A DNA stretch of 64,000 bases. Source: Verrucomicrobium sp. (lineage in GTDB: Bacteria > Verrucomicrobiota > Verrucomicrobiia > Methylacidiphilales > GAS474). A model generated the notes under the pieces. It was given only the letters and a program-made list of their open reading frames with translations. It had not been told where the DNA came from and did no database searches. Location of the stretch: positions 186,001 through 250,000 of the forward strand of contig JAPWJX010000001.1 in assembly GCA_028283855.1 (NCBI GenBank), written 5' to 3'. Positions 14,497-41,161 of the stretch are shown here, piece after piece. Positions within the stretch are counted from its first letter, which is position 1. Every line of letters starts with the position of its first letter. The translations under genes and the position numbers were made by a program.

Positions 14497-16546
14497 ATGT
14501 CCGCCGATAAAGAGGCCCTTTCGGTATACGTCGTCCGCCACGGCATCGTTCTCATCGACGCGCTGAAGCGCTGGGTCGATCAAACCCCCAACCTTTCCGC
14601 CGCGGAGCTTCTCGTCGCCCGGTCCGCGTTCATCCAGGAGCGGACGTGGTGGGAGCAGTTCGGCAGTGACGCGGGCATGCCCCGCCACTGGCCCTCCGGC
14701 GCTCCTTCCTCCCTGCCGGAAGAAACCTTCAACGGCCCCGGCCGCCTGCTGCTCAAGAGCCATCCCGCCGTCCTCCTCCAATGGAAGCCCTTTCCCATCC
14801 TCGGCGTCATCGATCCTTTCAATGAAGGAGCCCTGCGCGCCTGGTGCCAGAAACACCTGCCGCAGACGCCGGGCGTCCAGCTGGAGGTCCGCACCGTTTC
14901 CCCCCACTTCATCGACGCCTGCCGCGCCCATCTCCAGGGCCTGCCGGACCCGGACAAGGGCCCGGTGCCGCCCCCGCTGCCGCGGCCGAGCAGAGTCGAC
15001 GTCGCCGCCTGGGCCGCCCTGTGCGAGATGAATCCCGAAGGCGTCTCCACCTGGCAGGACCTGGCGGGCACCATCGCGGAGTCCTTCCTCATGGACACCC
15101 TGCCGCCGGACTTCCTGGTCTCTGCCGTCCCCATCGAAGGGATCGAGGAAGCCATGGTCGTCCAGCGCTCCGACACCGTGGCGTGGCTCGTCACCGCCCA
15201 CGCGCACGACCGCCGCATCGTCGACAGCGCGCTTCAGCACCTCGGCATGCGGGTCATCCCCTTTGCCATCCCCCCGGAGGACTTCCGGCGGCTGAAGGAA
15301 ACCTTCGTCCCGCAAATCGTCGTCGAGAGCGACGTGCGGGCCACCAGCGCCTGGGACATCGACCCGCAGCTCGATCCCGACCTGGCCGGCATCGAGCTTT
15401 ACCGCAAGCTGATGGGCGCCGCCGTCCGCGCCGGCGCGTCCGACATCCACCTGGATCCTAAGGAGCGGCGCGTCCGCGTCCGCTTCCGCATCCACGGTGA
15501 ATTGACGGAGCAGGCCCCGCTAAACCTCCACCTCCACCAGATCCTCCTGCGCCGCCTGAAGATGCAGGCCGGCATGCGCCACGACGTCAAGGGCGCCATC
15601 CAGGACGGTTCCGGCGAGTTCGAGACCGACGAAGGGGAGGTGACCGAGCAGCGCTACTCCATCGCCGTCGTCAAGGGCGGCGCGGAAGCCGTCGTCATCC
15701 GCCTCCTTTCCCGCAAGCTGCCGAAGCTGGAAGACGTCCACCTGGACGCCGCCAGCCGCCGCGCGATCGACTGGTTCCTGGAGGGCGACGGCGGCATGTT
15801 CGTCATCACCGGCCCCACCGGCAGCGGCAAGACGACGACCCTCTACGCCTGCCTTTCCAAGGTCGACGTGCCCGAGCTGAAGATCATCACCGTGGAGCAC
15901 CCGGTGGAAAAGCACCTGCCCGGCGCCGTCCAGATCGACGTGCGGGAGGACGGCGAAATCACCTTCAAGGCGGCCCTCAAGGCCGTCGTCCGCCAGGACC
16001 CGGTACATCCTCATGATCGGTGAAATCCGGGACGACGAAAGCGCCGCCATCGCCATCAACGCGGCCCTCACCGGCCACAGCGTCTTCTCCACCATCCACG
16101 CCATCGACCCCGTCGGCGTCCTGGAGCGGCTTTGCCAGAGCTTCAACGTCGACCGCATGACGGCCGCCCAGGCCCTGAAGCTCGTCCTCTCCCAACGCCT
16201 CGTCCGCCGCCTCTGCCCCCTCTGCAAGGAAGTCACCCCGGCCAAGGCGGAAGACCTCCGCTTCTTCCCGGAGACCGACATCGCCAACCCCGTCTCCGCC
16301 CGCCGCGTCGGCTGCCCCGCCTGCCGCCACACCGGCTACGCGGGCCGCGTCGCCATCGCGGAAGTCCTCATGTTCGATCCCGTCATGGTCGCCCTGGTGG
16401 AAAACCGGGAACCGGCCAGCGTCCTGCGCGCCCGGAATCGGGAACGCGGCTTCATGCCCCTGGGCCAGCAGGCCAGCATCCTGGCCCAAACCGGCGAAAT
16501 CACCTTCGCCGAGGCCAAGCTCCTCCTCCCCACGGCCCAAATTTGA
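14497..16546 (+). pseudogene. GspE/PilB-type secretion ATPase interrupted by a frameshift
   Basis: Two adjacent frames make one complete type II/IV secretion ATPase. The first (14497-16023) has the N-terminal domain, RAGASDIHLDP (about residue 311), Walker A GPTGSGKTTTLY (439-450) and EHPVE. The second (open from before 16013 to 16546) continues with MIGEIRDDESAAIAIN (Walker B), the TGHSVFSTIHA histidine box and the CPLC...CPAC zinc tetracysteine. The break is near 16000-16003: in QDP(R)YILMIGE one base is missing before GGTAC. Without it the last 180 residues, including the hydrolysis residues, are lost. It could be a true pseudogene, a sequencing error or, less likely, programmed slippage. 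Confidence 0.85.
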
Positions 16547-17757: not shown

Positions 17758-18540
17758 CTAACTCTCCAGCGGGCGGATGTCGTCCGCCTCCGCCATCGTG
17801 CGCAGGTGGCCCAGCGCGGAAAGATAGGCCTTTTGCCGCCGGGCGCCCATACGGGCGCGGCGATGCCGGGCCGGCTCCCCCTCCAGGCCGAATTCCTCCT
17901 CCAGCACCTGCCGCTCCTTTTGCGTCAAAAGCCCCAGCGCGTGGTGGATCCAGGTAAACTCCTCGTGGCGGCAGGCCGTCTCCGCGATGTCCGGAGCGGG
18001 GTCCGCCGGGCTGGCGTAACTCTGGCGCGGCGCCGCGTACTCCTCCGTGAATTCCTCCTGGATAATGGCGAAACTCATCCCCCCGACGACCGCCGCCACA
18101 TGCCGCGCCATACCGCCGGCCACCAACTTCTCCACCGTCTCGGCGGCATTGCGGCTTTCCTTGCCCGCCTTGCGCCGCGCCTCGTGCGCCCAAGCCGGGA
18201 TCCGGATCGGCTGCGGAATGTCGAAGCGGAACTTCCCGATCATATTGTAAACCTGCGGCACGCAGTAATCGGTGAAGCGGACACCCCGCGCGGGATCATA
18301 CTTGGCCAGCGCCCGCATCACGCCATACCAGCCGTGCTGGATGCCGTCCTCCAGGAAGAGGCTTTTCGATCCCAGGAAATACTCCGCCACCTTGCGCCGC
18401 GCGGGCAGAGTCAGCCGCGCCAGCCACTCCAGCGCCTCGGCGGAACCTTGCCGTGCCGCTTCCACCCGGGGCGCTTCCTCCTCCACCAGCCCGTGGTAGC
18501 GGGCGCGCTGTTCGGCCGAAAAAGGCAGGGCGTGAGCCAT
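17758..18540 (-). CDS. Sigma-70-family RNA polymerase sigma factor, shortened region 4
   Basis: 260 residues. Region 2 is clear: LFLEDGIQHGWYGVMRALAK followed by YDPARGVRFTDYCVPQVYNM, then PQPIRIPAW, matching the DLIQEG..GL..A...FDP.RG..F..Y and IRIP pattern of RpoD-type factors. A region 3-like helical part follows, then LGLLTQKERQVLEEEFGLEG, the start of region 4. The helix-turn-helix of 4.2 is abnormal: the GxSxExVRQIE motif is replaced by an Arg-rich stretch. Start ATG at 18540. It is divergent from the T4SS-like operon across a 125-base gap with a palindrome, so it may direct that operon. Confidence 0.78.
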   Translation of the reverse strand: MAHALPFSAEQRARYHGLVEEEAPRVEAARQGSAEALEWLARLTLPARRKVAEYFLGSKSLFLEDGIQHGWYGVMRALAKYDPARGVRFTDYCVPQVYNMIGKFRFDIPQPIRIPAWAHEARRKAGKESRNAAETVEKLVAGGMARHVAAVVGGMSFAIIQEEFTEEYAAPRQSYASPADPAPDIAETACRHEEFTWIHHALGLLTQKERQVLEEEFGLEGEPARHRRARMGARRQKAYLSALGHLRTMAEADDIRPLES

Positions 18541-18603
18541 GCTTTGGAAGCAGCTTCGTGCATGCCAAGTCCCGTGGCCTAAGTAATCTCCCTACAATAG
18601 AAA

Positions 18604-18654
18604 TATATTTTCCGTAAAAAAATGCTTCGCAAATGCGAAATGAAGTGACATAAG
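18604..18654. promoter_or_regulatory. Divergent promoter region with perfect palindrome (sigma factor / T4SS-like operon)
   Basis: TTCGCA (18626-18631), AA, TGCGAA (18634-18639) is a perfect 6-2-6 palindrome. On the minus strand it includes a -35-like TTGCGA (18632-18627), 17 bases from AATATA (18609-18604), pointing to the sigma factor gene. On the plus strand TTCGCA is 17 bases from CATAAG (18649-18654), pointing to 18666. A factor bound here would touch both promoters. The -35 to the right is weak. Confidence 0.45.
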
Positions 18655-18665
18655 AGTCCGTCTCT

Positions 18666-19388
18666 ATGTTTCGGCGGCATTGGAGTTTATTTTTCTTAGT
18701 CCTGGTCCTTGTGACCAGTGGAACCTTTGCCTCTGCGCAATCCCGCTCCACAGCGCAAACAGGGCGCGCCAACGCCAACTCCCGGAACACCAATTCCAAC
18801 GCGAACGGCGATGCCGACGCGCCCACGCAGATCCTCAGCGTGCAGCCCAACCCGGCCAGCCCGAATTTGGCACCCGCCGCCCTGACCCCCACGCCGCCGG
18901 TCAGCACCGTCACCGTGCCCAGCGGGCAAACCGGCGCCACCCGCGGCCTGGTCCCGGCCGACGTGCCGATGGTTGACAGCCCCACGCTTGGCGACCAAAT
19001 GGCCCCCGCGCCGCAGCCGTCTCCTTCCAGCGCCCCGGCCCCCGTTCCCGGGGAGGGAGGCGTCCTCCGCCTGCGCCTGGCCCTGCATGAGCTGATCCTC
19101 CTCCAGCAGGCGGCCCATGAGGCGGGCGGCGACATCCGCATTTCCATCGACCCCGTCGGCATCACCACGGAAGACCTCATCGTCCCGCTGGCGCGCGATC
19201 CCGAGTTCCTGGTGAAGAGAGAAGGAGACGTCATCATCGTCAGCACCCGCAGTCCGGACGCCGTGGCCATGCAGATGCGCCAGGAAGTCCAGAAGCTGGA
19301 AGACCGCCGCCGCGCCTTGCTGCAGGACATCTCCGTCCTGGAGCGCCTTTCCAACTCCAAGACGCCGCTGCCCTCCCAATCCCAATAG
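18666..19388 (+). CDS. Unknown exported protein, first gene of the T4SS-like unit
   Basis: 240 residues; signal peptide ending FASAQ (cut near residue 25). A Ser/Asn/Thr/Pro-rich unfolded linker (about residues 25-125) precedes a compact C-terminal domain of about 100 residues with LRLALHELILLQQAAHEAGG, a hydrophobic strand HIISI-like (DIRISIDPVGI), and an acidic/basic coiled-coil end (VQKLEDRRRALLQDISVLER). No family recognised. Six bases separate it from the next gene. Context suggests a periplasmic part of the secretion apparatus. Confidence 0.7.
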   Translation: MFRRHWSLFFLVLVLVTSGTFASAQSRSTAQTGRANANSRNTNSNANGDADAPTQILSVQPNPASPNLAPAALTPTPPVSTVTVPSGQTGATRGLVPADVPMVDSPTLGDQMAPAPQPSPSSAPAPVPGEGGVLRLRLALHELILLQQAAHEAGGDIRISIDPVGITTEDLIVPLARDPEFLVKREGDVIIVSTRSPDAVAMQMRQEVQKLEDRRRALLQDISVLERLSNSKTPLPSQSQ

Positions 19389-19394
19389 CCGCGC

Positions 19395-20885
19395 ATGATC
19401 CGCTTCCGCTTCTCCCTCTGTCTTTTGTGCGCGGGGGTGCTGTCGGCGGCTCCGGCCAGCTGGGGGCAAACCGCCCCGGCCTATCCGCAAACCGACCAAT
19501 ACGCCGCCCTGCCCACGGCCTCCAACATCACGACGACTCCCGGCCAGGCCAATCCGAATGGCATGCCCACTCCCAGTCCGGCGTTGACCACCGTTCCTCA
19601 AACCTCCTTGTTCCCTTCCGTCACGGACTACGGCAATCCCGAAGGACCGCAGACCAGCAGCATCCTAAACGAGGAGCGGGATGCGCAAAACCGTGGTCTC
19701 AAGGAAATCATGCGGCCTCCCGTGCCGGTCGTGTTCACCCCCTATTCCAGTCAGAATCCATACGCCAACGAGAATCCCTACCCCAATCAGGTTGTGGGCG
19801 ATGGAGCGGCAAGCGCCTCCGCAACGGCGGCTACCTCCGGGAATCTTCGCGCGACGGGCACGGCCGCGGCGGCCAATGCGAGCCAAGTCGGCCTGCCCAC
19901 CGTCGATTTGAACGCCTCCCAGCGCTCCGCCCAGGTTCCGGTCATTGCGGGGCCTAACGGATTGGGGCAGCTTCCGTCTGGCGCCATCACAACTTACGGG
20001 CCTGGCAGCCAGGCTCCTGTTTATGGTCAAAACCCCTACGCCGGACAGGGGGTTGTTCGTGGTGCCGGAGGGCTTCCGGGAATTACCTCGCAGAACGGCG
20101 TGGGCATGCCTGCCTCCTACGGAGGGGCAACACCTCCTGGGACGGCTCAACTTTCCCAGGGCTTTTCTGGCAACGGCGTGAATAGTGGCGGAAGCATCCC
20201 GGCCGATTACAATGCCGCCCTTGCCGCGGCGCTCCAGGCCCTACGCAACACCGGAGCAGCGGGCGGAAGCCGCTCGGCAGCTGACCGAGCCCCCGCTTCC
20301 GGCTGGCAGGCCCTCCCCCCCGCTGGAGCCTCGGCCGCTCTGAAGAATGTCGCCAAAGAGTCCATTGTCCCTCCCTTTACCATTTCGGCCGCTTCCCGTT
20401 CTTTGGACCTGAGCCGCATTTGGTGGTCTCCGGAGCTGCTTTCCATTCGCATCGGCCGGCCGGCCGGGGGAGGGGAAGGAGTGGTGGTTCCTTGGCGGCG
20501 TTCTCCCGCCGGATTTCCTGCCGCGATTTTGATCGCTCGCCTTCCCACCATCGAAAACCGGCAAATCATCATTAAACAGGCTGTTTCCATGATGTGGGTC
20601 GATAACAGCTGGATTGCGGAAGGTTCCTCGATGGCTGTGGTCCTGCGGGAGAAAAACGGGGACATGAAGACTCTCATCACTCCAGCCGATGGGCAGGGAA
20701 TGTGGCGAATCCGCCTTACTAAAGGAGATACCGTGGAAGTGTGGCGGTGGATCGGGACCGCCTTGAACGGTTGCCGTGCTCCTTTGGCGGAAGAGCTGAA
20801 CAATGAAGAACTTCGGCAGCTTCTCATCAATTCCGGCGAGGTGGTGTGGCGGATTTCCCCCGCACCGGGAACTTCCAAAACATAA
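19395..20885 (+). CDS. Unknown exported protein with long disordered region
   Basis: 496 residues; signal peptide MIRFRFSLCLLCAGVLSAAP..SWG. Residues 25-320 are Pro/Asn/Gly/Ala/Gln/Tyr-rich with repeated NPYA/NPYP tetrapeptides. The last 160 residues form a folded domain (DLSRIWWSPELLSIRIGRPA, NRQIIIKQAVSMMWVDNSWI, GDTVEVWRWIG). This layout of a long spacer and a small terminal domain would span the periplasm or reach the cell surface; VirB10-like spacers are similar in style, but I see no homology to VirB10. It lies directly upstream of the VirB2-like pilin. Function unknown. Confidence 0.68.
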   Translation: MIRFRFSLCLLCAGVLSAAPASWGQTAPAYPQTDQYAALPTASNITTTPGQANPNGMPTPSPALTTVPQTSLFPSVTDYGNPEGPQTSSILNEERDAQNRGLKEIMRPPVPVVFTPYSSQNPYANENPYPNQVVGDGAASASATAATSGNLRATGTAAAANASQVGLPTVDLNASQRSAQVPVIAGPNGLGQLPSGAITTYGPGSQAPVYGQNPYAGQGVVRGAGGLPGITSQNGVGMPASYGGATPPGTAQLSQGFSGNGVNSGGSIPADYNAALAAALQALRNTGAAGGSRSAADRAPASGWQALPPAGASAALKNVAKESIVPPFTISAASRSLDLSRIWWSPELLSIRIGRPAGGGEGVVVPWRRSPAGFPAAILIARLPTIENRQIIIKQAVSMMWVDNSWIAEGSSMAVVLREKNGDMKTLITPADGQGMWRIRLTKGDTVEVWRWIGTALNGCRAPLAEELNNEELRQLLINSGEVVWRISPAPGTSKT

Positions 20886-20931
20886 TTTTTCCCCCAACTT
20901 GGCGTTGTTTAAGCTTATCCTCCTGTAGAGT

Positions 20932-21003
20932 ATTGGAACCAATGCCACCTCTTTTCCCCGAGCAGCAAAACCGCCTTGAAAAGTTTATTAACGGCTCTAA
21001 ATA
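20932..21003 (+). promoter_or_regulatory. Palindrome and likely promoter before the first VirB2-like pilin
   Basis: The 185-base gap holds ATTGG-AA-CCAAT (20932-20943), a 12-base palindrome. Further down TTGAAA (20976-20981) is 16 bases from TAAATA (20998-21003), an acceptable sigma-70 promoter 67 bases before the pilin ATG. The gap is far richer in A/T than the coding DNA around it. This fits separate, strong transcription of the pilin gene. Confidence 0.45.
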
Positions 21004-21070
21004 AATAAGTAATTTGGCAGTCTTTAAGCGCTTTTTTTGGCAATCCCCCAAAACCCAACACCAACACCAT

Positions 21071-21436
21071 ATGATGAAGTTATTGAATGTTCGCTTTCTT
21101 AATCGGGTCGTTTTCTATCTGACCCTTTCCCTGGTGGTTCTGTCTTTGACGGACTCCGTCATGGCCCAGGGCGCCGGTCAGCTGAATGTCACCGATGCGC
21201 TGGAGAGCACCACTGCTAACTACTGGTTCGCCAACCTCTTCAAGGCGATTCAGAACTTCGCGGGTATCCTCCTGGTTATCGGCGTGGTTATCGCCGGCCT
21301 GCTGTGGATGGCCAACAAGCCTCAATTTGCCATCGGCGTGCTGATCGGTTCCGCGGTCGTCTTCGGCGGCCCCTACCTGGTCGGTCTCATCAACGGCGGT
21401 CTCGGCAGCGGCGTCACTGGCGGCGTCGGCTACTAA
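21071..21436 (+). CDS. VirB2/TrbC-like pilin subunit
   Basis: 121 residues. A long signal sequence ends in TDSVMA, leaving a mature protein of about 90 residues with two membrane helices separated by a short basic loop: NFAGILLVIGVVIAGLLWMA, NKPQ, FAIGVLIGSAVVFGGPYLVG. This is the VirB2/TrbC layout. In type IV secretion, VirB2 is drawn from the inner membrane to build the pilus. I chose the ATG at 21071 because the longer frame adds a polar stretch before the signal. It is followed by a strong hairpin, then a larger paralog. Confidence 0.82.
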   Translation: MMKLLNVRFLNRVVFYLTLSLVVLSLTDSVMAQGAGQLNVTDALESTTANYWFANLFKAIQNFAGILLVIGVVIAGLLWMANKPQFAIGVLIGSAVVFGGPYLVGLINGGLGSGVTGGVGY

Positions 21437-21460
21437 GTCCTCTGGTTTTCTGCTCGGAAT

Positions 21461-21496
21461 CCTTCCGCGTCGCCCGGTTGCGGGCGCCGCGGAAGG
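21461..21496 (+). terminator. Strong hairpin after the first pilin gene (partial terminator or RNA stabiliser)
   Basis: CCTTCCGCG (21461-21469) pairs with CGCGGAAGG (21488-21496), and inside it CGCCCG (21471-21476) pairs with CGGGCG (21481-21486) over a GTTG loop, leaving one T/C mismatch. The stem is 15 pairs, nearly all G-C. Only TTTG follows, so termination is likely incomplete. Placed between a probable abundant pilin and the rest of its operon, it could limit downstream expression. Confidence 0.65.
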
Positions 21497-21523
21497 TTTG
21501 CGGAAAACCCTTCTGAATTCTCT

Positions 21524-21533
21524 CCCCCCCCCC
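21524..21533 (+). repeat. C10 homopolymer directly before a start codon
   Basis: Ten consecutive C residues lie 3 bases before the ATG at 21537, where a ribosome-binding site would be. Such tracts slip readily in replication and in sequencing. No normal Shine-Dalgarno sequence is visible for this gene. Confidence 0.7.
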
Positions 21534-21536
21534 ATT

Positions 21537-22196
21537 ATGCGTTTTCCTCTTTCGGCCATGATGTGCCTCACGCTCTTTGGGGGGCTTTTATTTGCGCCTC
21601 TTTCCAGGGCGCAAGCGCAGTCCGATACCAATTTCACCACTAGCCAGACGGCTGAGGTGGTGGGTTCTTTTGCGGCGGGAGGTAATCCGACCCCCCTCCA
21701 AGGGACAGAAGCGACCGGGGTTCAAAAGAATCAGTTTTTTAACCTCCTCGCCTCCCTTCACAATTTCGGCATCGTCCTGATGGCGATCGGCATCGTTGTT
21801 GCAGGCCTGTTTTGGATGGGCGGCCGGCCTCAGTTTGCCATCGCCACACTAGTAGGTTCCGTTGTTCTCTTCGGGGCCCCTGCGTTTGTCGGTTTGATCA
21901 GCAATGCAGTTCCGGATGGATACGGCGGGGTAGGCACGGCCGGAGTAGACGTGCCCTCTTACATTACGGATACGTCTTCCATTGAATACGTTGTGGCCTA
22001 CGTCATCATCCGCATCCAAAACACCGTTCAAGGGCTTTCCGTTATCCTTTGCGCCCTTTACGGCACTCTTTTGGGTATCGATGCTCTTTTAGGCGGTCTC
22101 GATTCGGCCCGTCTTAATTCCTTCATCATTGGCGTTATCGTCGTGATGAGTTCACCTTTTCTTGTGCAGGTCTTCAGTTCCGTCTTTAATGGGTGA
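21537..22196 (+). CDS. Double VirB2-like protein (two pilin units fused)
   Basis: 219 residues; signal peptide ending PLSRAQA. Residues about 70-125 repeat the first pilin: NFGIVLMAIGIVVAGLFWMG, then GRPQFAIATLVGSVVLFG, nearly the same order of residues. A second unit follows (about 155-219): IRIQNTVQGLSVILCALYG then GIDALLGGLDSARLNSFIIG and a third helix. The total is four membrane helices, twice the VirB2 plan, so it is a fused or minor pilin, or a membrane platform derived from one. Its start has a C10 tract instead of a ribosome site. Confidence 0.75.
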   Translation: MRFPLSAMMCLTLFGGLLFAPLSRAQAQSDTNFTTSQTAEVVGSFAAGGNPTPLQGTEATGVQKNQFFNLLASLHNFGIVLMAIGIVVAGLFWMGGRPQFAIATLVGSVVLFGAPAFVGLISNAVPDGYGGVGTAGVDVPSYITDTSSIEYVVAYVIIRIQNTVQGLSVILCALYGTLLGIDALLGGLDSARLNSFIIGVIVVMSSPFLVQVFSSVFNG

Positions 22197-22200
22197 GGTA

Positions 22201-22215
22201 AAGGAGTCGCTCCTT
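22201..22215 (+). promoter_or_regulatory. Hairpin sequestering a Shine-Dalgarno-like sequence before the virB3-like gene
   Basis: AAGGAG (22201-22206) pairs with CTCCTT (22210-22215) across a TCG loop. AAGGAG is the only good ribosome-binding sequence before the ATG at 22224 and is 17 bases away, too far when unfolded. The hairpin may lower or tune translation of the next gene. Confidence 0.35.
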
Positions 22216-22223
22216 ATCTCTTC

Positions 22224-22523
22224 ATGATCGAAGAAGGCGAAAAACTGCGCAGGACCACTTCCAGCATCATCACTGAGGACAAGGGTGAATTTCTTGGCCT
22301 TCCTGGTGGTTCCATCTTCGCCGTCCTCGGTTCCTTCGCCGTGATCCAGGCGATGACGAAGAACTTCTTCCTGGCCCTTATCTTCGCCGGCGTCCTCTAT
22401 TTCATCATGCGCTCCTGGCTGCGCGGGAAGCCTTCCCACTACATCTTCTACTGGATCTGGGAACGCCGCGCGCCAAAGCTCTACCGCCACCGCGGGGACG
22501 GCCCCCGCTTCCGCCAATGGTAG
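22224..22523 (+). CDS. VirB3-like inner-membrane protein
   Basis: 99 residues, the VirB3/TrbD size, with a soluble start, two hydrophobic stretches (residues about 28-45 and 48-65: IFAVLGSFAVIQAMTKN and FFLALIFAGVLYFIMRSW), and a basic, aromatic C-terminus (YIFYWIWERRAPKLYRHR). VirB3 sits between VirB2 and VirB4 in nearly all type IV secretion operons and helps VirB4 bind the membrane; the position here matches. Its stop overlaps the virB4-like start. Sequence similarity alone would be weak evidence; gene order makes the call. Confidence 0.72.
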   Translation: MIEEGEKLRRTTSSIITEDKGEFLGLPGGSIFAVLGSFAVIQAMTKNFFLALIFAGVLYFIMRSWLRGKPSHYIFYWIWERRAPKLYRHRGDGPRFRQW

Positions 22524-25168
22524 GCATGAAGAACGGATTCCGCTGGCCGAAGTTCGGCATGGTGCCCGCCGCCCGCTTTATCGATCCCGTCCAGCTGGCC
22601 AGCCCGCTGGACGTGGTGGGGACCGCCCTCCTCGACGCCTACGGCGGCGTGCACGAGATGTATGAGCTGCAGGCGCCGACGACCGACGTCTTCAGCCCCT
22701 CCCGGCTGAACGACCTGCAGGACTCCCTTTCCACACTGGTCACCCGCCTTCCCGAGGGGATCGACGAGATCGAGTTCACCTTCACCACGAATGGGGATTA
22801 CACCCCCGTCATCCGCAACCATGCCGCGTTGCGGCACGAGAATCCCGTCCTCGACGAACTGCGCCGCACCCGCGCGGGGCGCCTTCAGGAAGAGGTGCGG
22901 AAGGGGAAGCTGGTCGCCTGCGCCACGCACATCACCGTCGGCTCGGTGGCGATGGCCCGCCAGGGGGTCAAGGACCTGCGCCGCCCGGTCGACGAGGCGG
23001 AGTTCCGCGTCGTCTCCAACCGCCTGCGCTTGGCGGAGGAAAGCCTGCGCGCCGTCACCGACCGTTCCGGCATGGTCCTCAACAAGCTGGAAAGCCCGGC
23101 GATGGCCGAATATTTCTACCGCCTCCTCAACCCGGAGCAGGCCGTCGACATGGGCATCCCGCCGCGCTTCGACGCGGAGCGCACCCCGTGGATCGACGCC
23201 TGGCTCTGCCAGCCCATCGACACCGCTCCCATGGGGCCGGAAGGCCCCCTCCAGGGCATGATCCGCTGGGGGGACTACTACCACGCCGTCATCAGCATGT
23301 CGGGCAAGCCGCTGGAGACCCAGCCGCGGATCATGGACGTCGTCACCGCCGCGCTGCCTTTCCGCCAGTGCCGGGCCACCTTCCGCGTTCGCCGGCTGGA
23401 CCAGCTCCAGGAAAAGGATCTCCTGGTCAAAGCCCGCGACAAGGCCGACCAGATCCGCACCATGCCGCTCAACTTCCTGGACCGGGCCATGAACCCCTAC
23501 GGGAAGGACCGGGACAGCGGCGCCAACAACGTCGAGGCCAACGAGCAGATCCGCGAGGCCAACGAGCTAATCGCCAAGATCCGCACCGGCGAAGAGATCC
23601 TGGTGCAGACCCAGCTTATTTTCCATCTCTGGCACCGCGATCCGCAGGAGCTTCAGCAGCGCTGTTCCACCCTCCAGGTCCGCATGGCGGAAGTCGGCAA
23701 CGCGCGCGGCTACCACGAGAAGGACGGCATCCTCCCCATCCTCTTCGGCAGCCTGCCGGCGGCCGGCGGCCCCATGCTGGAGCCGAAGAAGATCTCCAGC
23801 CGCATGGCGGCCGACATGATCCCTCTCAACCGCGGCTTCGAGACGCAGGACCGCCCCGTGGCCATGTTCGCCAACGCCACCGGCGGCATCGTCCCCATCA
23901 ACCTCTTCGACACCAGCCGCGTCACCGCGCCGATGGCCTTCGTCTCCGGCAAGAGCGGCTCGGGAAAATCGGTCACCGTCAACCACCTCATCGCCAGCCA
24001 CGCCCTGGCGGACACGCGCGTCATCATCCTGGACGTCGGCGGCAGCTACGATTCCCTGGCCGAGATCCTGGGGGCGAAGGTTTTCCGCCTCGATCCCCAG
24101 CGCCCGGCCTGCCTCAATATCTTCCAGGTCCTCGGCCAGAGCGGGGACAGCATCAGCGCCGCCGTCTCCGAGCCGAAGTCGGCCCTCCGCTCCCGCTTCG
24201 TCAACGCGCTGGAGGCTCTTTGCACCCGGCCGGAGGACCCCAACGGCTGCCTGCCCAGCGAGCTGCGCACCGTCGTCGACGTCGGCGTCGCCCAGACCTT
24301 CGCCTGGGGCGCGGAGCGCCGGAAGCCCTACATCACCCTGAGCGACTTCACCGAGCGCGTCTCCAAATTCGCCGAAGGGAAAAAGATCGCCGAGCGCATC
24401 CGCCCCTTCCTCAAGAACGAGCTATGGGGCCAGTGGTTCGACGGGCCGACGGAATGGAACGTCGATTCGAAGGCCTTCATCGTCGACCTGCGCGGCATCA
24501 AGAAGCAAAAGCAGCTGGCCGACGCCCTCATTCCCCTCATCGTCAGCCTGATCGACGACCTCTGCGTCCGGGACAAGGACGTGCCGAAGATTCTCGTCTT
24601 CGAGGAAATGTGGGAGCACGTCGGCAATCCGAAGGTCATGGACATGGTCATCGATTCCTTCAAGACCTTCCGGAAGCTCGGCGCGGCCGTCATCGGCGTC
24701 TCCCAGGCCATGGGCGACCTCTTGGAAAACGCCCGCATGGCCAAGGCCGTCGTCCAGAACGCCCAGACCTGGTTCCTCCTGGACCAGGGCGACGGAGACA
24801 ACCGCAAGATCGTGGCAGAGCAGCTGAAGCTCACCCTGGGCGAGCAGGAAGTCCTCCGCACCCTGAGTTCCTCCCGCCGCATCACCGACGACGGCAAGCC
24901 GGAGATGTTCCGGGAAATGCTCTTCGTCCGCGGCTCCGGGGAACAGCGGGAAAGCGGACGCCTGCGCACCTCCTTGATGCCGGAAGACCTGTGGCTGCAC
25001 ACCACCACCGGCCGGGAAATGGCCCTGCGGGAGCACGCCATGAAAGCCGCCGGCGGGGACCGCTGGCTGGCGGTCAAGGGCCTGGCTCTCAAGTATCCCC
25101 TGGGTCTCGATCCGCGAGAGGCGGGGCAGGCCATTGAGGGAGAGGCGTCGCCGTCCGAGGGGGCATGA
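22517..25168 (+). CDS. virB4: VirB4/TraC-type type IV secretion ATPase
   Basis: 883 residues. The N-terminal half is the CagE/TrbE/VirB type; the C-terminal half is a P-loop ATPase with Walker A GKSGSGKSVT (from residue 478), RVIILDVGGSYDSLAEILGA (Walker B-like strand shared with TraC), KILVFEEMWEHVG (about 690, catalytic acid) and VIGVSQAMGDLLENA near the arginine-finger region. VirB4 drives pilus assembly and substrate transfer at the inner membrane. ATG 22517 overlaps the virB3 stop; ATG 22526 is an alternative. No VirD4 coupling protein or relaxase is in the window. It overlaps the next gene by 4 bases. Confidence 0.93.
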   Translation: MVGMKNGFRWPKFGMVPAARFIDPVQLASPLDVVGTALLDAYGGVHEMYELQAPTTDVFSPSRLNDLQDSLSTLVTRLPEGIDEIEFTFTTNGDYTPVIRNHAALRHENPVLDELRRTRAGRLQEEVRKGKLVACATHITVGSVAMARQGVKDLRRPVDEAEFRVVSNRLRLAEESLRAVTDRSGMVLNKLESPAMAEYFYRLLNPEQAVDMGIPPRFDAERTPWIDAWLCQPIDTAPMGPEGPLQGMIRWGDYYHAVISMSGKPLETQPRIMDVVTAALPFRQCRATFRVRRLDQLQEKDLLVKARDKADQIRTMPLNFLDRAMNPYGKDRDSGANNVEANEQIREANELIAKIRTGEEILVQTQLIFHLWHRDPQELQQRCSTLQVRMAEVGNARGYHEKDGILPILFGSLPAAGGPMLEPKKISSRMAADMIPLNRGFETQDRPVAMFANATGGIVPINLFDTSRVTAPMAFVSGKSGSGKSVTVNHLIASHALADTRVIILDVGGSYDSLAEILGAKVFRLDPQRPACLNIFQVLGQSGDSISAAVSEPKSALRSRFVNALEALCTRPEDPNGCLPSELRTVVDVGVAQTFAWGAERRKPYITLSDFTERVSKFAEGKKIAERIRPFLKNELWGQWFDGPTEWNVDSKAFIVDLRGIKKQKQLADALIPLIVSLIDDLCVRDKDVPKILVFEEMWEHVGNPKVMDMVIDSFKTFRKLGAAVIGVSQAMGDLLENARMAKAVVQNAQTWFLLDQGDGDNRKIVAEQLKLTLGEQEVLRTLSSSRRITDDGKPEMFREMLFVRGSGEQRESGRLRTSLMPEDLWLHTTTGREMALREHAMKAAGGDRWLAVKGLALKYPLGLDPREAGQAIEGEASPSEGA

Positions 25169-27651
25169 GCAGCGGCGCGCGCGTCCTTGCCATTTTCTTT
25201 GCCTGGATTTTCCTGGCGGCGCCCTTGCGCGCCTTCACGAACGACCAGGTCACCCTCCTGGACGTCGATCCGCAGGTCACCCAGCCGCTGGGCTTCGACC
25301 GGGCCAGCAAATATCTTTTGAGTTCCGCCAAGGTCGGCCAGCAGCTTTCTCCCTCCATGGCCTTGAGCATCGTGGCGGAACTCATGGTCCTTCCGGAATT
25401 TCAGGGTGGCATCGGCTTGGCTCTTTGGGAAGGGGACTACCGTCTGGCTCGCACCATGCGGCAGATTCTCCTTAGCTTGAACATGAGCCAGCAGGCGACG
25501 GAAACTCTCCTGGCGAAAATGGCCTCCTCCGGCGGCCGTCTCAATCCTGACGTGGCCCAAATCATGCAGACCGCGGCCACCCAGGAAGTTTGCCGCAAGA
25601 GCCTTTATGACTACATGGTCCAGACGCCGGAAAACTATCCTGTCATCGTCGCTGGCTTGAGCCGGTTCTGGAGCCAGCCCCAGTTGCGGATCACGCGCTT
25701 GCTACGCGAGCGCTTCCAGCAATTCCTTTCCGGATCGGAATGGGACCAGGTGCTGGCGGGAGATCCCACCGCCCGCTGGAAGCTCAATGAGTTGGTCGAG
25801 CCGGAACTCCTCCGCCCGAATATTTTCACCGACATCCTGCGAGCCAACGCCCAGGAAAGTCTCCAGAGCCCTTATTTCCTGTTCTGGTCTCGATGGACCG
25901 CCCAGGTGGCCTCTGAGCAGCCTCTTCTCCAGGAGATGATAAACCGGCTTCAGCAATCGACGACGGTGTACGACGGTTTGCAGGCCTGTTTGGCCAAGTC
26001 GCTGAGCACCACGGGCGACATTTTGATGCGGCAATACCTGCGTGCCAGCCAGATTCCTCAAAGCCGCTACCAGCGCATCTTCCAGCTGCTTTCGGGTCAG
26101 ACAGGGCATTCGGTTGAGATGGATAGTACTCCCCGCAGCCGGATGATCGGAACTTGGGCAAGTCAGGTTTCCAGTGACAAGGTTTGGTGCAATTACCTTC
26201 TGTGGCATTTAACCCGGCCTGCTTCCAGCCTGGCCCGCGTTACCTTGCATTCGATCGGTGAACAACTTTCGGGCATGCAGGACCTTGCTCAGATCGCATA
26301 TAACTCGATTGAAGACCAAAACCAGCCGCATCCCGATTGGATCTCCCAGGTCGTACGTGATCCGCGGGAATTTCAACGATTGAAAGCGGCAGGACGCCTC
26401 ACTGCCTCCGATTGGCTTTCTTTTGGCAGCGGCATGGCCCGTGTGCTGGAGCAGGATCCGGATGCCGCCCGCTGGCTTTTGAGCGACGCTCCGCGCAGCA
26501 GCCTTTTCTTTTCCAAAGCGATGGCCGCCGCCATGCAATCCTCCAGCCAGATGGTGATGGCGTGGAGCGGCACCATGCTGCATGGCGACGCCATGGTACA
26601 GCAGCGCTTCCTGCGTTTCGCCATTCAGAACGGTGCCATTCGCACGGCGGAGGAGGGGCAGCAATGGCTCAATTTTATCCAGGCGCATGCTACGGAGACG
26701 GTCAACCCGCAGGTGGGGAAATTTAAACAGATTTGGGGGAGCTGGGTTCAAACGGGAGAGGGACAATCGGCCGTCCTCATGCACCTGGAATTGGAAATCT
26801 GGGGGGTTAATCAAAGTGTGCGGCAGCTCCTCACCAACGGATGGTCGGAGAATGTGGACACCTACCTAACCTGGCGGCACATGGCCACATTCCTCCCTCC
26901 GGACAAAGGTGGCATTCTCGCACGGGATAGCATTGTCCTATTGCGGCAAGGAAACTTCATCCAGGCTTGTCTTAGCGGGGCCCAACACGGCAACTTGGCC
27001 ATCGGAGATGCCATGGTCCCCATCTGGCGCGCCATGTTCCTGCGGCCGGAAAGCGAGCTGGTTTCCGCTTTCCAGCAGGAGCTGACTCGCGGCGCGCTCT
27101 TGGGCAATCCCTATTCCGCCGGCGCCCTGGCCCTGGCCGATGCGATCGAGAAGGTCCCCGGCCCCGTCGACCAGAGCATCGCCCGGGTCAATCTCAGCGG
27201 CTATTCCCCCGGGGAGGCGGGCCGCGCCAAGCTTATCCGCAGCCTGCTCCAGGCGGGATCGGAGGTGCGCCCCCTGGTCGTCGACATGATGCGGAACAAG
27301 GAAATTTGGAACACGTGGCGCAACTCCCTCTTCTCCGCCATCCTCTATGCCGGAAAGGGGACCGCCGCGGCCGACCTGGTCGCCCGGAGCGAAGCATTGC
27401 AGAAAATTTGGGCCGACGAGCTCGAAAAGGTGTTTGCCTCCGACCTCAATACCGTCTCTTATATCATGAGTGGCCTTGCCAAGCAGAGCGCCGGGAATGA
27501 CGGTTCCGCCGATCGCCTAGCAGCTTGGCGTAAGGAACTTATGAACGCCGACGCCGCCAATCAGGTCTTTTTCGAGCAGATGATCGCCGATCCTTCCGGC
27601 GGCTATCGCGACCAGTTCGATTCCCTTTGCGCCAAATACCTTTCCCAGTAG
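25165..27651 (+). CDS. Large unknown exported helical protein, translationally coupled to virB4
   Basis: 828 residues with a signal peptide (MSSGARVLAIFFAWIFLAAP, cut near LRA). The mature part is almost wholly alpha-helical, with many Trp/Gln/Leu amphipathic stretches and no membrane segment, and no repeats I could define. Codon use changes from very GC-rich to moderate within the gene (about 25.4-27.0 kb). The ATG lies in the virB4 stop (ATGA), so it should be produced with the ATPase and work outside the inner membrane. It could be a periplasmic scaffold of this T4SS variant, taking the place of known core proteins. No homology recognised. Confidence 0.72.
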   Translation: MSSGARVLAIFFAWIFLAAPLRAFTNDQVTLLDVDPQVTQPLGFDRASKYLLSSAKVGQQLSPSMALSIVAELMVLPEFQGGIGLALWEGDYRLARTMRQILLSLNMSQQATETLLAKMASSGGRLNPDVAQIMQTAATQEVCRKSLYDYMVQTPENYPVIVAGLSRFWSQPQLRITRLLRERFQQFLSGSEWDQVLAGDPTARWKLNELVEPELLRPNIFTDILRANAQESLQSPYFLFWSRWTAQVASEQPLLQEMINRLQQSTTVYDGLQACLAKSLSTTGDILMRQYLRASQIPQSRYQRIFQLLSGQTGHSVEMDSTPRSRMIGTWASQVSSDKVWCNYLLWHLTRPASSLARVTLHSIGEQLSGMQDLAQIAYNSIEDQNQPHPDWISQVVRDPREFQRLKAAGRLTASDWLSFGSGMARVLEQDPDAARWLLSDAPRSSLFFSKAMAAAMQSSSQMVMAWSGTMLHGDAMVQQRFLRFAIQNGAIRTAEEGQQWLNFIQAHATETVNPQVGKFKQIWGSWVQTGEGQSAVLMHLELEIWGVNQSVRQLLTNGWSENVDTYLTWRHMATFLPPDKGGILARDSIVLLRQGNFIQACLSGAQHGNLAIGDAMVPIWRAMFLRPESELVSAFQQELTRGALLGNPYSAGALALADAIEKVPGPVDQSIARVNLSGYSPGEAGRAKLIRSLLQAGSEVRPLVVDMMRNKEIWNTWRNSLFSAILYAGKGTAAADLVARSEALQKIWADELEKVFASDLNTVSYIMSGLAKQSAGNDGSADRLAAWRKELMNADAANQVFFEQMIADPSGGYRDQFDSLCAKYLSQ

Positions 27652-27682
27652 CTCCATAACCGCATTCCTTGAATCCCCCCAC

Positions 27683-28159
27683 ATGGACCAGAAGAAACGC
27701 CTGATAGTCTCCCTCGGTTTGCTCCTTGCCTTGGCTGGGTGTTCCAGCGCGCCTTATGCCTCGCGGCAAAGCACCACCAGCCAAATCACCGACGCGGGCG
27801 TCGAATACGGCGGGCCTTTGGCGCTGGGCGCGGCGGGCTTTTTTGCCGGACGGGCCATGGGCCATTCCGATACGGCGGGCGCCCTGGGCGCCTTGGCAGG
27901 CGCGGCGGCGGGCATCGGCTTCGACGTCTTTGCCAACGCCAAACGGAAAGAGGCCTACCGCGTGGGCATGGAAGACGGTGCCAATATGGCCCGTGCCGAG
28001 CAGGCGATCGACCAGTGGAAGCGGGAGGCTGTCTATAACGCGCCGCGCTCCCAGGTTTCCGCCCTCCAACCGGTTTACCGCCCCGTATACGTCCACAGCC
28101 GCAGCATCAACGGGGTGACCTATCCCGGCGGCTATCAGGAAGTGCCGGTTTATCCCTGA
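27683..28159 (+). CDS. Lipoprotein with glycine-zipper segment (VirB7-position)
   Basis: 158 residues with a lipobox LALAGC; Cys20 would be acylated. After a short linker comes an Ala/Gly-rich hydrophobic run (GGPLALGAAGFFAGRAMG and GALGALAGAAAGIGFD), typical of glycine-zipper proteins that insert in or span membranes, then a charged helix (KRKEAYRVGMEDGANMARAEQ) and a Tyr/Pro/Val-rich end. It closes the T4SS-like unit before a terminator. Small lipoproteins (VirB7) stabilise the outer-membrane ring in canonical systems; this one is larger and only its type and place suggest that role. Confidence 0.72.
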   Translation: MDQKKRLIVSLGLLLALAGCSSAPYASRQSTTSQITDAGVEYGGPLALGAAGFFAGRAMGHSDTAGALGALAGAAAGIGFDVFANAKRKEAYRVGMEDGANMARAEQAIDQWKREAVYNAPRSQVSALQPVYRPVYVHSRSINGVTYPGGYQEVPVYP

Positions 28160-28222: not shown

Positions 28223-28750
28223 TTAGGCCGCGTCGAAATATTGTTCGCCTTGGGCCCGGCTGCGGCGGCGGCGCAGCGCCTCCTCTTCCTCCAGATCCTC
28301 GATTTCCCGGCGGACCTCCGTGGAACGGCGTACCGAGCCCAGGATGTTTTCCTGGCCCGCGCTTTGGTGGGGAGGATGGGTTAAAAAGGAAACCGTAACG
28401 GCGGAGGCCGGAGCCCGCTTTTCCTCATGCAAGCGCTCGGCTTCGACTTTCGCATCGGAAATTTCCCGGCGAACTTCCAAAAGATTGTACCGCTCCAGAT
28501 TCACCGCCGCCTGCGTCGTGTGGCCGGTAGTGGGGGAAAGGCGGGCGGACCGTTCCTGCTGTACGGCTTCCGCCAACTGTTGAAAAGCGGGATTGGTGTG
28601 CGCCACGTTCGGAGAGAGAAGTTCCAAGCGTTGAAGCTGATCTTCGGCCCGATCGTCCATCAGTTCGCCGATTTTACGGAGTTTCGTCAGCTCGTTCAGC
28701 TGGGTGGGATCGAGAGGCTTGCCTTGAGTGCCGTGGGGGAGGGGTTTCAT
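28223..28750 (-). CDS. Unknown charged coiled-coil protein
   Basis: 175 residues, very rich in Glu, Arg, Gln and Leu, with no signal peptide or membrane helix. It repeats LEVRREISDAKVEAE and STEVRREIEDLEEEE (about residues 91-105 and 144-158), a coiled-coil pattern. It is the last gene of the minus-strand unit before the terminator, with one of three copies of an 11-base element (AATAGCCGAAT) 21 bases before its ATG. It may be a cytoplasmic partner of the neighbouring membrane or immunity-like proteins; function unknown. Confidence 0.62.
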   Translation of the reverse strand: MKPLPHGTQGKPLDPTQLNELTKLRKIGELMDDRAEDQLQRLELLSPNVAHTNPAFQQLAEAVQQERSARLSPTTGHTTQAAVNLERYNLLEVRREISDAKVEAERLHEEKRAPASAVTVSFLTHPPHQSAGQENILGSVRRSTEVRREIEDLEEEEALRRRRSRAQGEQYFDAA

Positions 28751-28771: not shown

Positions 28772-28789
28772 ATTCGGCTATTCGCCGAA
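28772..28789 (-). promoter_or_regulatory. Upstream element AATAGCCGAAT, copy 1
   Basis: On the minus strand AATAGCCGAAT (28782-28772) ends 21 bases before the ATG at 28750. Here it overlaps a 6-5-6 inverted repeat (TTCGGC 28773-28778, GCCGAA 28784-28789). The same 11 bases in the same orientation precede the genes at 31446 and 40119. Confidence 0.5.
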
Positions 28790-30026: not shown

Positions 30027-30596
30027 CTAGACGGCGCGCCCCTCGAATACGAGGATCGGCTCGCAGACCGTTTCGCTGTCCTTGTTGTCCACCTCGTCGT
30101 CGAGGCTGGGACCGCCGCCGGAAACCGTCCCTTCCGCCTTCTTCTTTGGCCGGAGGGAGGAGCGGCGGTAGCTCAGGCCGCCCAGGGGAATGGCTCGAGA
30201 GGAGCTGCCGGGCAGGGAAGAAGAGGGCAGGGGCACTTCGTAGGGATCATTCAGGTCGGCCAAGGCGGGGGTTTGGCGGAGGAGGGTGACGACGTCGGCG
30301 GAGGCGATAGGTTGCAGGAACCAGCCCTCCGGGCCTTCCTCGGCGGCCGCGAAACCGCAGCCCCCCTTAAGCCCGGCCAGCACTTCCAGGCATCCCCGGG
30401 CGGAGGGAGACCAGGAGCCCGCGCCGCGCAGGACGATCAGGTCGGCCTCGCCCTCCACCAGGCGGAGGAGGTCCTGCTGCACGGTGGAGGAGGGCAGGAA
30501 GGCGTGACCTTGGGCGCGCAGGCTTTCCACGGGAGCTTCGTCGCCGTGGCGCGCGTCGCAAAGGAAAAGGGTTTCCGTGCCGGTCCGATTCATCAT
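30027..30596 (-). CDS. Degenerate receiver-like domain protein
   Basis: 189 residues from ATG 30596 (longer frames overlap the SUKH gene). The first 110 residues have the beta-alpha order of a CheY receiver: TETLFLCDARHGDEAPVESL, LRAQGHAFLPSSTVQQDLLR, ADLIVLRGAG at the phosphorylation strand, and EGWFLQPIASADVVTLLR in place of the usual K-P-F segment. The phospho-acceptor Asp is not present in ADLIVLRG, so it would not be phosphorylated. A Ser/Pro-rich, charged tail follows. Start and SUKH stop share ATGA. Function unknown; receiver reading is inference. Confidence 0.55.
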   Translation of the reverse strand: MMNRTGTETLFLCDARHGDEAPVESLRAQGHAFLPSSTVQQDLLRLVEGEADLIVLRGAGSWSPSARGCLEVLAGLKGGCGFAAAEEGPEGWFLQPIASADVVTLLRQTPALADLNDPYEVPLPSSSLPGSSSRAIPLGGLSYRRSSLRPKKKAEGTVSGGGPSLDDEVDNKDSETVCEPILVFEGRAV

Positions 30597-31087
30597 GGCA
30601 GCTCGGCTCCGGCGGCTTCGTCCAGGGGGATCCCCAGGGCCTCCTTGAGGGCGTTCTCCATCATCTCGGAAAAATCGGAAAACTGCTCGATCGACTCGTG
30701 GCGGTCCTTCCACAGCGCGTGGTAGGTGCCGCTGGGCGCGTGATGGGCGTAGAGCCAGAGATCGGACTCGCCCAGGATGAGGTAGGGCGTACGGGCCTTG
30801 AAGAGGACGCCGAGGGAAAGATTTTTGGCGATGAGGCCGGGGATTTCCTGATCGGCCTCGTTCTCCTCATCCAGGGCGTAGAAGCAGGAGCCGGAATAAA
30901 GGAAGCCGTTGGCCTCCCGCAGGAAGTGGGCGTAATCGGGGGGCAGGTCGGCGCCGAGCTGCCGCCGGACGCGGGGCAGGAAAGCCTCGATCTCCGCAAC
31001 GCCTGCGCGGTAGAGCGCGCCGCCTTGCTCGTGCAGCGTCTCGTTCAGCAGGTCGAGGAAAGGGGTGTAGGAAGGGCCTTCGCTCAT
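30593..31087 (-). CDS. SUKH (SMI1/KNR4) superfamily immunity-like protein
   Basis: 164 residues from ATG 31087. The SUKH core is visible: a helix leading to LGADLPPDYAHFLREANGFLY (the L-P-x-x-Y-x-x-F-L-x-x-x-N-G signature), then SGSCFYALDE, and later PYLILGESDLWLYAHH with the strand pattern of the YrhA branch, then a helical end FSDFSEMMENAL. SUKH proteins neutralise nuclease or other toxins in polymorphic toxin systems. The TTG at 31117 lies upstream of the inferred -10 and is unlikely. First gene of an operon of immunity-like genes; no toxin gene is directly upstream, so it may be an orphan. Confidence 0.82.
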   Translation of the reverse strand: MSEGPSYTPFLDLLNETLHEQGGALYRAGVAEIEAFLPRVRRQLGADLPPDYAHFLREANGFLYSGSCFYALDEENEADQEIPGLIAKNLSLGVLFKARTPYLILGESDLWLYAHHAPSGTYHALWKDRHESIEQFSDFSEMMENALKEALGIPLDEAAGAELP

Positions 31088-31105
31088 CTCTTTGGCGATA
31101 ATGTT

Positions 31106-31114
31106 CTTATAGCA
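31106..31114 (-). promoter_or_regulatory. Extended -10 promoter of the SUKH operon
   Basis: On the minus strand TGCTATAAG (31114-31106) is an extended -10; a transcript would begin near 31099, 12 bases before the ATG. No good -35 lies 17 bases upstream (TTTTCC). It follows the terminator at 31149-31190, marking a new transcription unit. Confidence 0.45.
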
Positions 31115-31148
31115 CAAACGCCGGGTTTGGAAAATTTTTTACGATGCA

Positions 31149-31206: not shown

Positions 31207-31446
31207 TCAGGAGCCGGCTTCCCGGCCCTCCTGAGGGCGGGGCTTGTCGGTGACGGCGGGGACGCGGGAAAACTCGTAGGCGCCGGCGGCTTCCCGGGCG
31301 GCCAAGGCGGCCCAGCCGTTGGTTTGCGGGGTGACGCGGAGTTCCGGCTGCGGAATGCGGGTGGCGGGCTGGGGAAGGTAGGGCTCCGCGTAGCCGTCTT
31401 CAAAATTGTTGCGGGCGTTGATCCGGACCGGTTCTTGCATCGACAT
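31207..31446 (-). CDS. Small unknown protein
   Basis: 79 residues, Pro/Arg/Glu-rich and probably unstructured in part (YLPQPATRIPQPELRVTPQT), with one possible helix NGWAALAAREAAGAYEF. It has a plausible ribosome site (AGGAGCG) 6 bases before the ATG at 31446 and carries copy 2 of the AATAGCCGAAT element 30 bases before the start. Last gene before the terminator. No function recognised. Confidence 0.5.
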   Translation of the reverse strand: MSMQEPVRINARNNFEDGYAEPYLPQPATRIPQPELRVTPQTNGWAALAAREAAGAYEFSRVPAVTDKPRPQEGREAGS

Positions 31447-31476: not shown

Positions 31477-31487
31477 ATTCGGCTATT
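31477..31487 (-). promoter_or_regulatory. Upstream element AATAGCCGAAT, copy 2
   Basis: On the minus strand AATAGCCGAAT (31487-31477) lies 30 bases before the ATG at 31446, in the same place and orientation as the copy before 40119. It is followed by an A/T-rich TAATATTC that could act as a -10 element. Confidence 0.5.
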
Positions 31488-40149: not shown

Positions 40150-40160
40150 ATTCGGCTATT
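40150..40160 (-). promoter_or_regulatory. Upstream element AATAGCCGAAT, copy 3
   Basis: On the minus strand AATAGCCGAAT (40160-40150) lies 30 bases before the ATG at 40119 and overlaps the TAG stop of the upstream gene. An A/T-rich ACTTATAAACC follows it. Confidence 0.5.
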
Positions 40161-40687: not shown

Positions 40688-41161
40688 TCAGGCTTCGCCG
40701 CCGAGCATCATTTCCGCTTGTTCCTGGAAAAAGGCGGCGAAGTCGGGATAGGTGGCGGAGACGCTCCAGTCCGCGAGGGAAAGGGCCAGGTAGATGCGTT
40801 CCTGGCGGTCGTAGGCGAGGTAGTCGACGTCGGTATGACCCAGCAGAAGGTAACGGGAGGCGGGCTTGTCGGCGGGGCGTTCCCGGCGGTTGAACTCCAG
40901 CAGGCCGCCCCGGGCGTAGGGCTCCCCCTCGTCGTCCTCTTGGTCCAGGCCGAAGAGGGTGACGCCGTTCCAGGCGAGGCCGTCGCTCTGTTTGAGGAAG
41001 TCGATCCAGTCTTCCGGCAAGGTGCCGAGGCCCGCTTCTTCCGCGCAGGCGCGAAAGCCGTCCAGCGCCTCGGGACCGGCGGGAGGCTCCGTGGGGTAGC
41101 CGCCCTCCCGTTTGTCCTCGAAGACCTGCTCGATGAGGTCGAGGGTCTCGTCGGTCATCAT
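40688..41161 (-). CDS. SUKH (SMI1/KNR4)-type immunity-like protein coupled to the 944-residue gene
   Basis: 157 residues. Core signature LGTLPEDWIDFLKQSDGLAW (the L-P-x-x-W-x-x-F-L-x-x-x-x-G form of L-P-x-x-Y-x-x-F-L), then VTLFGLDQEDD, RYLLLGHTDVDYLAYDRQER and a helical end FAAFFQEQAEMML, the same order of elements as the SUKH protein at 30593. Its ATG overlaps the stop of the upstream 944-residue gene (ATGA), the classic arrangement of a toxin followed by its immunity gene. It would bind and block that protein in the producing cell. Partner assignment is inference from position. Confidence 0.8.
   Translation of the reverse strand: MMTDETLDLIEQVFEDKREGGYPTEPPAGPEALDGFRACAEEAGLGTLPEDWIDFLKQSDGLAWNGVTLFGLDQEDDEGEPYARGGLLEFNRRERPADKPASRYLLLGHTDVDYLAYDRQERIYLALSLADWSVSATYPDFAAFFQEQAEMMLGGEA

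Follow-up and report, generated by a model that had tools for sequence, protein, structure and literature searches.

Type III secretion systems and flagella are familiar examples of machines that have a dedicated sigma factor. The locus described here raises the question of whether a T4SS can have one too, as a gene for a sigma-70-family protein stands back to back with a T4SS-like operon on a contig that also carries copies of a short element, AATAGCCGAAT. The window, by which we mean the whole stretch of DNA that was analyzed (64,000 nucleotides, G000:C1:186001-250000), belongs to a 2.56-Mb assembly of 9 contigs from Verrucomicrobium sp., and its features are collected in Table 1. The original prediction, made from the DNA letters, was that the sigma factor may serve the secretion genes and that it perhaps recognizes AATAGCCGAAT, and we consider these two proposals separately.

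Table 1 Features at the sigma/T4SS locus, with positions counted from the first nucleotide of the window
Feature	Position	Strand	Remarks
PilB/GspE-type ATPase gene	14497..16546	+	frame broken at 16013-16023
T4SS-linked sigma-70-family sigma factor	17758..18540	-	260 aa; profiles, alignment, model, Foldseek
Degenerate sigma region 4.2	17791..17889	-	about residues 218-250; about 8 residues shorter than in relatives
Sigma region 2, intact	18187..18435	-	about residues 36-118; 2.3/2.4 = FTDYCVPQVYNMIGKFRFDIPQPIRIPAW
Inverted repeat TTCGCA-AA-TGCGAA	18626..18639	.	in 125-bp divergent intergenic region; within chance expectation
First T4SS operon gene, 240 aa	18666..19388	+	homologs at equivalent place in relatives
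T4SS operon gene, 496 aa	19395..20885	+	homolog in G010 (L049)
VirB2/TrbC-type pilin	21014..21436	+	PF04956, E 7.5e-8
Second VirB2/TrbC-type pilin	21498..22196	+	PF04956, E 6.6e-7
TraL/VirB3-like small membrane protein	22224..22523	+	weak profile match; homologs in relatives
VirB4/TraC-type T4SS ATPase, 883 aa	22517..25168	+	profile matches
Operon-conserved protein, 828 aa	25165..27651	+	no Pfam, NCBIfam or PDB match
Small protein, last gene of conserved operon	27683..28159	+	homolog in L049
AATAGCCGAAT element, full AATAGCCGAATTA	28772..28782	-	upstream of ORF 28223-28750(-)
AATAGCCGAAT element	31477..31487	-	upstream of 79-aa ORF ~31207-31446(-)
AATAGCCGAAT element	40150..40160	-	upstream of ORF 38578-40119(-)

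Profile searches place the protein in the sigma-70 family, as had been predicted, with matches above cut-off to both Pfam Sigma70_r2 (PF04542; E 6e-7, 29.6 bits against a cut-off of 24) and TIGR02937 (43.4 bits against 42.9). A profile built from the 13-member sigma family matches SigA, RpoS and RpoD in the PDB. RpoS and SigA are likewise the top Foldseek matches for a structural model computed from the window protein and six relatives, with whole-chain TM-scores that are low (about 0.3) because the placement of the domains is not confident. Region 2 is indeed intact, as its family-invariant positions are conserved in the alignment and the model reaches a pLDDT of ~90 over this region (up to residue ~105). 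Over the full length, the family finds its best matches, by profile and by structure, among the RpoS and RpoD sigmas (groups 1-2), but the window protein is only 18% identical to the genome's own RpoD-like sigma, and its region 2.3 reads VPQ in place of the RpoD tryptophan pair (WW). With group 3 (SigB/SigF/SigG, FliA/WhiG) it shares YCVPxV in region 2.3/2.4 and a TIGR02980 match at E 1.9e-9; however, it scores far below the curated cut-off (37.6 bits against 234 for TIGR02980), as do its relatives for FliA_WhiG (26.8-43.4 bits against 190), and its region 4.2 is degenerate. It also falls outside the ECF group, since the best matches of its relatives are RpoS/RpoD over regions 2-4, including a linker of region-3 length.

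Region 4.1 is recognizable, and region 4.2 is shortened and degenerate. Sigma-profile matches to the window protein end at residue ~222, whereas those to its relatives run through the end of region 4, and the helix-turn-helix of region 4.2, which is typical but not universal in the sigma-70 family, gives no profile match in the window protein. Aligned with its relatives, this helix-turn-helix is ~8 residues shorter, and the pLDDT of the model falls below 50 at residues 221-231. A frameshift was rejected as the source of the odd region 4.2, as no alternative frame restores it. The altered region 4.2 of the original prediction is therefore confirmed.

The sigma gene and the first T4SS gene are divergent, with 125 bp between them, and the reading frames of the T4SS operon are open. 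The operon qualifies as a T4SS in that it combines a VirB4 ATPase, VirB2 pilins and a TraL/VirB3-like gene, the last being a weak assignment. As for the VirB7/9/10 outer-membrane core and VirB6/8, profile searches left several conserved operon proteins without any family match. A VirD4/TraD-type coupling ATPase of 793 aa, matching PF12696 and PF02534 above cut-off, is encoded ~2 kb past the end of the window (G000:C1:252109-254490; L054:2210-4591), and the system could therefore export substrates. T4SS homology is confined to 18666-28159 on the plus strand; most of the scanned genes at 28-51 kb lie on the minus strand with no T4SS match, and the proposal of a T4SS-like unit reaching to 45 kb went too far. 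On the other side of the sigma gene, the PilB/GspE-type ATPase is encoded in one frame in relatives and is split in the assembled window, and in Methylacidiphilaceae relatives this gene is also close to the sigma gene and T4SS.

The pairing of the sigma gene with the T4SS recurs well beyond this genome. Named relatives of the sigma factor are found in Methylacidiphilum sp. Yel, Methylacidimicrobium cyclopophantes and Verrucomicrobia LP2A, along with related MAGs, and for this reason the order was taken as Methylacidiphilales. When window ORFs were compared by tblastn with the loci around sigma homologs, three further families of the order also proved to have the sigma gene facing away from a homologous T4SS operon. 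When profile searches for VirB4 and the sigma factor were run over 60 genomes of the order, VirB4 was present in 18 and the sigma lineage in 14, each of the latter scoring at least 296 bits against 101 bits for the next best sigma. All sigma carriers fall among the VirB4-positive genomes (14/18, against 0/42 VirB4-negative), counts which do not represent independent events, as the carriers are related. Sigma and VirB4 share a contig in 12 assemblies, where they are divergent and 2.5-5 kb apart, and the homologs of the first gene, pilin, TraL-like gene and VirB4, where detected, keep the same order; in the other two (G044 and G053) each gene sits on a short contig of its own. Neither the sigma lineage nor VirB4 is present in the two same-genus genomes. 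Four VirB4-positive genomes (G004, G012, G017 and G009) do not have the sigma, and a T4SS can therefore exist without it. A divergent arrangement that is conserved in the order, and a sigma lineage strictly confined to VirB4-positive genomes, support a sigma factor dedicated to the T4SS, as originally proposed; by this comparison of genomes the link is well supported and the pairing is not accidental. The gene at 17758-18540 is probably a lineage-specific alternative sigma factor, group 2/3-like and not ECF, co-inherited with and divergent from a reduced T4SS operon in Methylacidiphilales. In our literature searches we came across no previous description of a sigma factor linked to a T4SS for this group.

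A co-inherited regulator with other targets would also fit the divergent placement. The degenerate region 4.2 could likewise reflect decay instead of a new specificity. That the protein is a decaying, non-functional relic in this species seems to us quite improbable: the loss of region 4.2, the low model confidence there and the frameshift in the adjoining PilB-type ATPase gene all fit such a fate, but the 260-aa frame is open, region 2 is conserved at its family-invariant positions, and the T4SS operon alongside is open. A working, T4SS-dedicated sigma would bind core RNA polymerase through region 2.1/2.2 and turn on genes needed together with the T4SS, be they those of the machine, its substrates or both. 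With its decayed region 4.2, the sigma of this species would be expected to choose promoters through region 2 and a long -10 element and not through a -35 box. The part of the original prediction that foresaw unusual promoter recognition is plausible on these grounds, given the degenerate region 4.2 and a region 2.3 without the tryptophan pair, while the naming of AATAGCCGAAT as the target is unsupported as it was stated.

The 125-bp region between the sigma gene and the T4SS operon offers little in the way of a shared control element. The "perfect palindrome" said to be common to both promoters was overstated, as it consists of 6-bp arms around a 2-bp spacer and is equalled or exceeded in 138 of 1000 dinucleotide shuffles (14%). 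The window contains 77 such inverted repeats, and none was seen at this place when the sigma/T4SS intergenic regions of relatives were read by eye; we rejected it as a shared operator. AATAGCCGAAT is absent from the intergenic region (18541-18665), where the best match ranks 62nd of about 128,000 window positions, and sigma autoregulation through AATAGCCGAAT was rejected for lack of an intergenic match. No common promoter element joining the sigma gene and the T4SS operon was found in this genome. Upstream of the sigma gene in five Methylacidiphilum loci (L006, L010, L011, L012 and L013) there are tandem TGTAACA repeats with an 11-bp period that resemble PhoB/OmpR-type direct-repeat sites; nine other 20-kb loci that were checked and the window have none.

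The AATAGCCGAAT element itself proves to be a genome-wide feature. The assembly holds 66 exact copies of the 11-mer and none of its reversed control, and two same-genus genomes hold 1 and 0. The longer 13-mer, AATAGCCGAATTA, is present in 47 exact copies, and none of 383 other genomes of the class has more than 1. The 3 exact copies in the window, against ~1.7 expected from a uniform spread, amount to no enrichment, and AATAGCCGAAT was rejected as a motif of the T4SS cluster because of its 66 copies genome-wide. The argument that the sigma recognizes AATAGCCGAAT and so serves the genes at 18.7-45 kb is unsupported in that form, since the motif is genome-wide, shows no enrichment in the window and does not occur between the sigma gene and the T4SS operon.

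In its placement the element is promoter-like, usually standing 7-12 nt ahead of a start codon. Across the 52 sites collected it has a single orientation, and an ORF starts downstream at 54 of 55 sites with longer flanks, 37 of these 54 starts lying 2-14 nt away (mode 7-8). The upstream flank shows a weak A/T run at -24 to -19 and a GG at -16/-15, and downstream an A is favored at +18/+19, which is where transcription would begin if GAATTA were the -10 box. Shine-Dalgarno signals do not differ significantly between element genes with short and long gaps (Fisher p 0.29). A blind search for start-proximal 9-mers recovered the element as the top motif in this genome, which served as a positive control, and found no comparable motif in ~400-kb samples of the sigma-positive relatives G014, G031 and G010; a similar motif in such relatives was rejected on this result. 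AATAGCCGAATTA is a strongly conserved, promoter-like element found a few bases ahead of more than 50 genes, most of them orphans. Being directional and start-codon-proximal, as judged against start codons and not transcript starts, AATAGCCGAAT resembles a -10 promoter element of near-leaderless mRNAs, most of which encode orphan proteins, and we infer leaderless transcription from its sites. The element appears to be species-specific as well as genome-wide, and would best be treated as a separate matter from the link between sigma and T4SS.

At most 13 of 49 proteins encoded downstream of the element match any Pfam family at E 0.001, and at least 36 have no match. The families found include ankyrin repeats (4), hexapeptide transferase (2), adenosine deaminase, rhodanese, ChaN and GNAT. 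Seven orphan proteins, searched as a chimeric query, matched their own seven loci; at the sensitivity of this search, G001, G002 and the T4SS-positive relatives G010, G014, G021 and G031 gave no match. At one locus (L121; G000:C3:1269000-1272590) three consecutive ankyrin-repeat genes are paralogs, and every one of them has a separate copy of the element. Two SUKH (SMI1/KNR4)-like genes, at 30593-31117 and 40688-41161 of the window, are close to element-bearing genes, and the SUKH fold is common among toxin-immunity proteins. That the T4SS exports the element-downstream proteins is a guess.

Which factor reads the element is a question on which the sigma inventory bears. For 10 of the 12 sigma genes in this genome there is a clear relative in G002, the complete same-genus genome (two of the 10 share one best match). 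The exceptions are the T4SS sigma and the sigma at G000:C3:14744-15451 (L235), which lies near a phage integrase, an IstB-like ATPase and a cytosine methylase in an integrated mobile element. Elimination would thus point, weakly, to the T4SS sigma as one of two candidate readers of AATAGCCGAAT; it narrows the field only weakly because the tested downstream genes are also absent from G002, which reduces the value of the missing element there as evidence on the reader. That the T4SS sigma reads AATAGCCGAAT is possible but unproven.

Were the T4SS sigma to drive a genome-wide AATAGCCGAATTA regulon, its region 2 would read a 13-bp extended -10, the missing region 4.2 would make a -35 box dispensable, and transcripts would begin at the ATG, or immediately ahead of it, in genes for orphan proteins that the T4SS possibly exports. 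The copy numbers of the 11-mer and 13-mer against the reversed control and the class genomes, the one orientation close to starts with its weak A/T run and GG upstream, the two sigmas without a clear relative in the element-less G002, and products that include four ankyrin proteins, an adenosine deaminase and orphans unmatched in G001, G002 and T4SS-positive relatives all agree with this. Against it stand the empty sigma/T4SS intergenic region, the lack of a comparable motif in the samples of sigma-bearing relatives, the small weight of the element's absence from a same-genus genome, and the -10-like GCCGAA, which is also FliA-class-like in a genome where a FliA/WhiG sigma is present; we regard the idea as doubtful. 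A different reader, for which we see a chance not far below even, could be the FliA/WhiG-type sigma, the sigma at G000:C3:14744-15451, RpoD with an activator, or a directional repressor or activator. The FliA -10 box is GCCGATAA and has GCCGA in common with the AATAGCCGAAT element, and the FliA/WhiG sigma of this genome scores above its NCBIfam cut-off; yet FliA is 72-74% identical in same-genus genomes without the element, and the canonical TAAA of the -35 is not seen at the expected spacing. The mobile-element sigma has regions 2 and 4 intact, but would need to run a chromosome-wide gene set. We regard as unlikely the fullest form of the proposal, in which a T4SS-encoded sigma, having lost the domain that reads the -35 box, would have taken over a species-specific regulon of ~66-100 near-leaderless genes from a 13-bp extended -10 and its orphan products would be delivered by the T4SS.

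An order-wide, T4SS-tied sigma lineage, present in the methane-oxidizing Methylacidiphilum and related bacteria, would offer a way into the role of an uncharacterized T4SS, and the genome-wide element, whatever its reader, marks out a set of co-regulated orphan genes in a single species that is ready for testing. The HrpL regulons are among the nearest known arrangements. HrpL is an ECF sigma, unlike the window sigma, and it also drives the secretion genes themselves, whereas the element here is -10-like and no copy of AATAGCCGAAT precedes the T4SS operon. The likeness lies in an alternative sigma tied to secretion and in a short, conserved promoter element with copies throughout the genome, which in Pseudomonas syringae and Dickeya is the hrp box before candidate substrate genes (PMC3879358, PMC2957411); the link between sigma and element is a candidate one in our case. 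The Icm/Dot system of Legionella (PMC12239595) similarly has many effector genes co-regulated for one T4SS, an effector role being a guess here, and it relies on LysR-type and other regulators where the present locus has a sigma factor encoded beside the T4SS.
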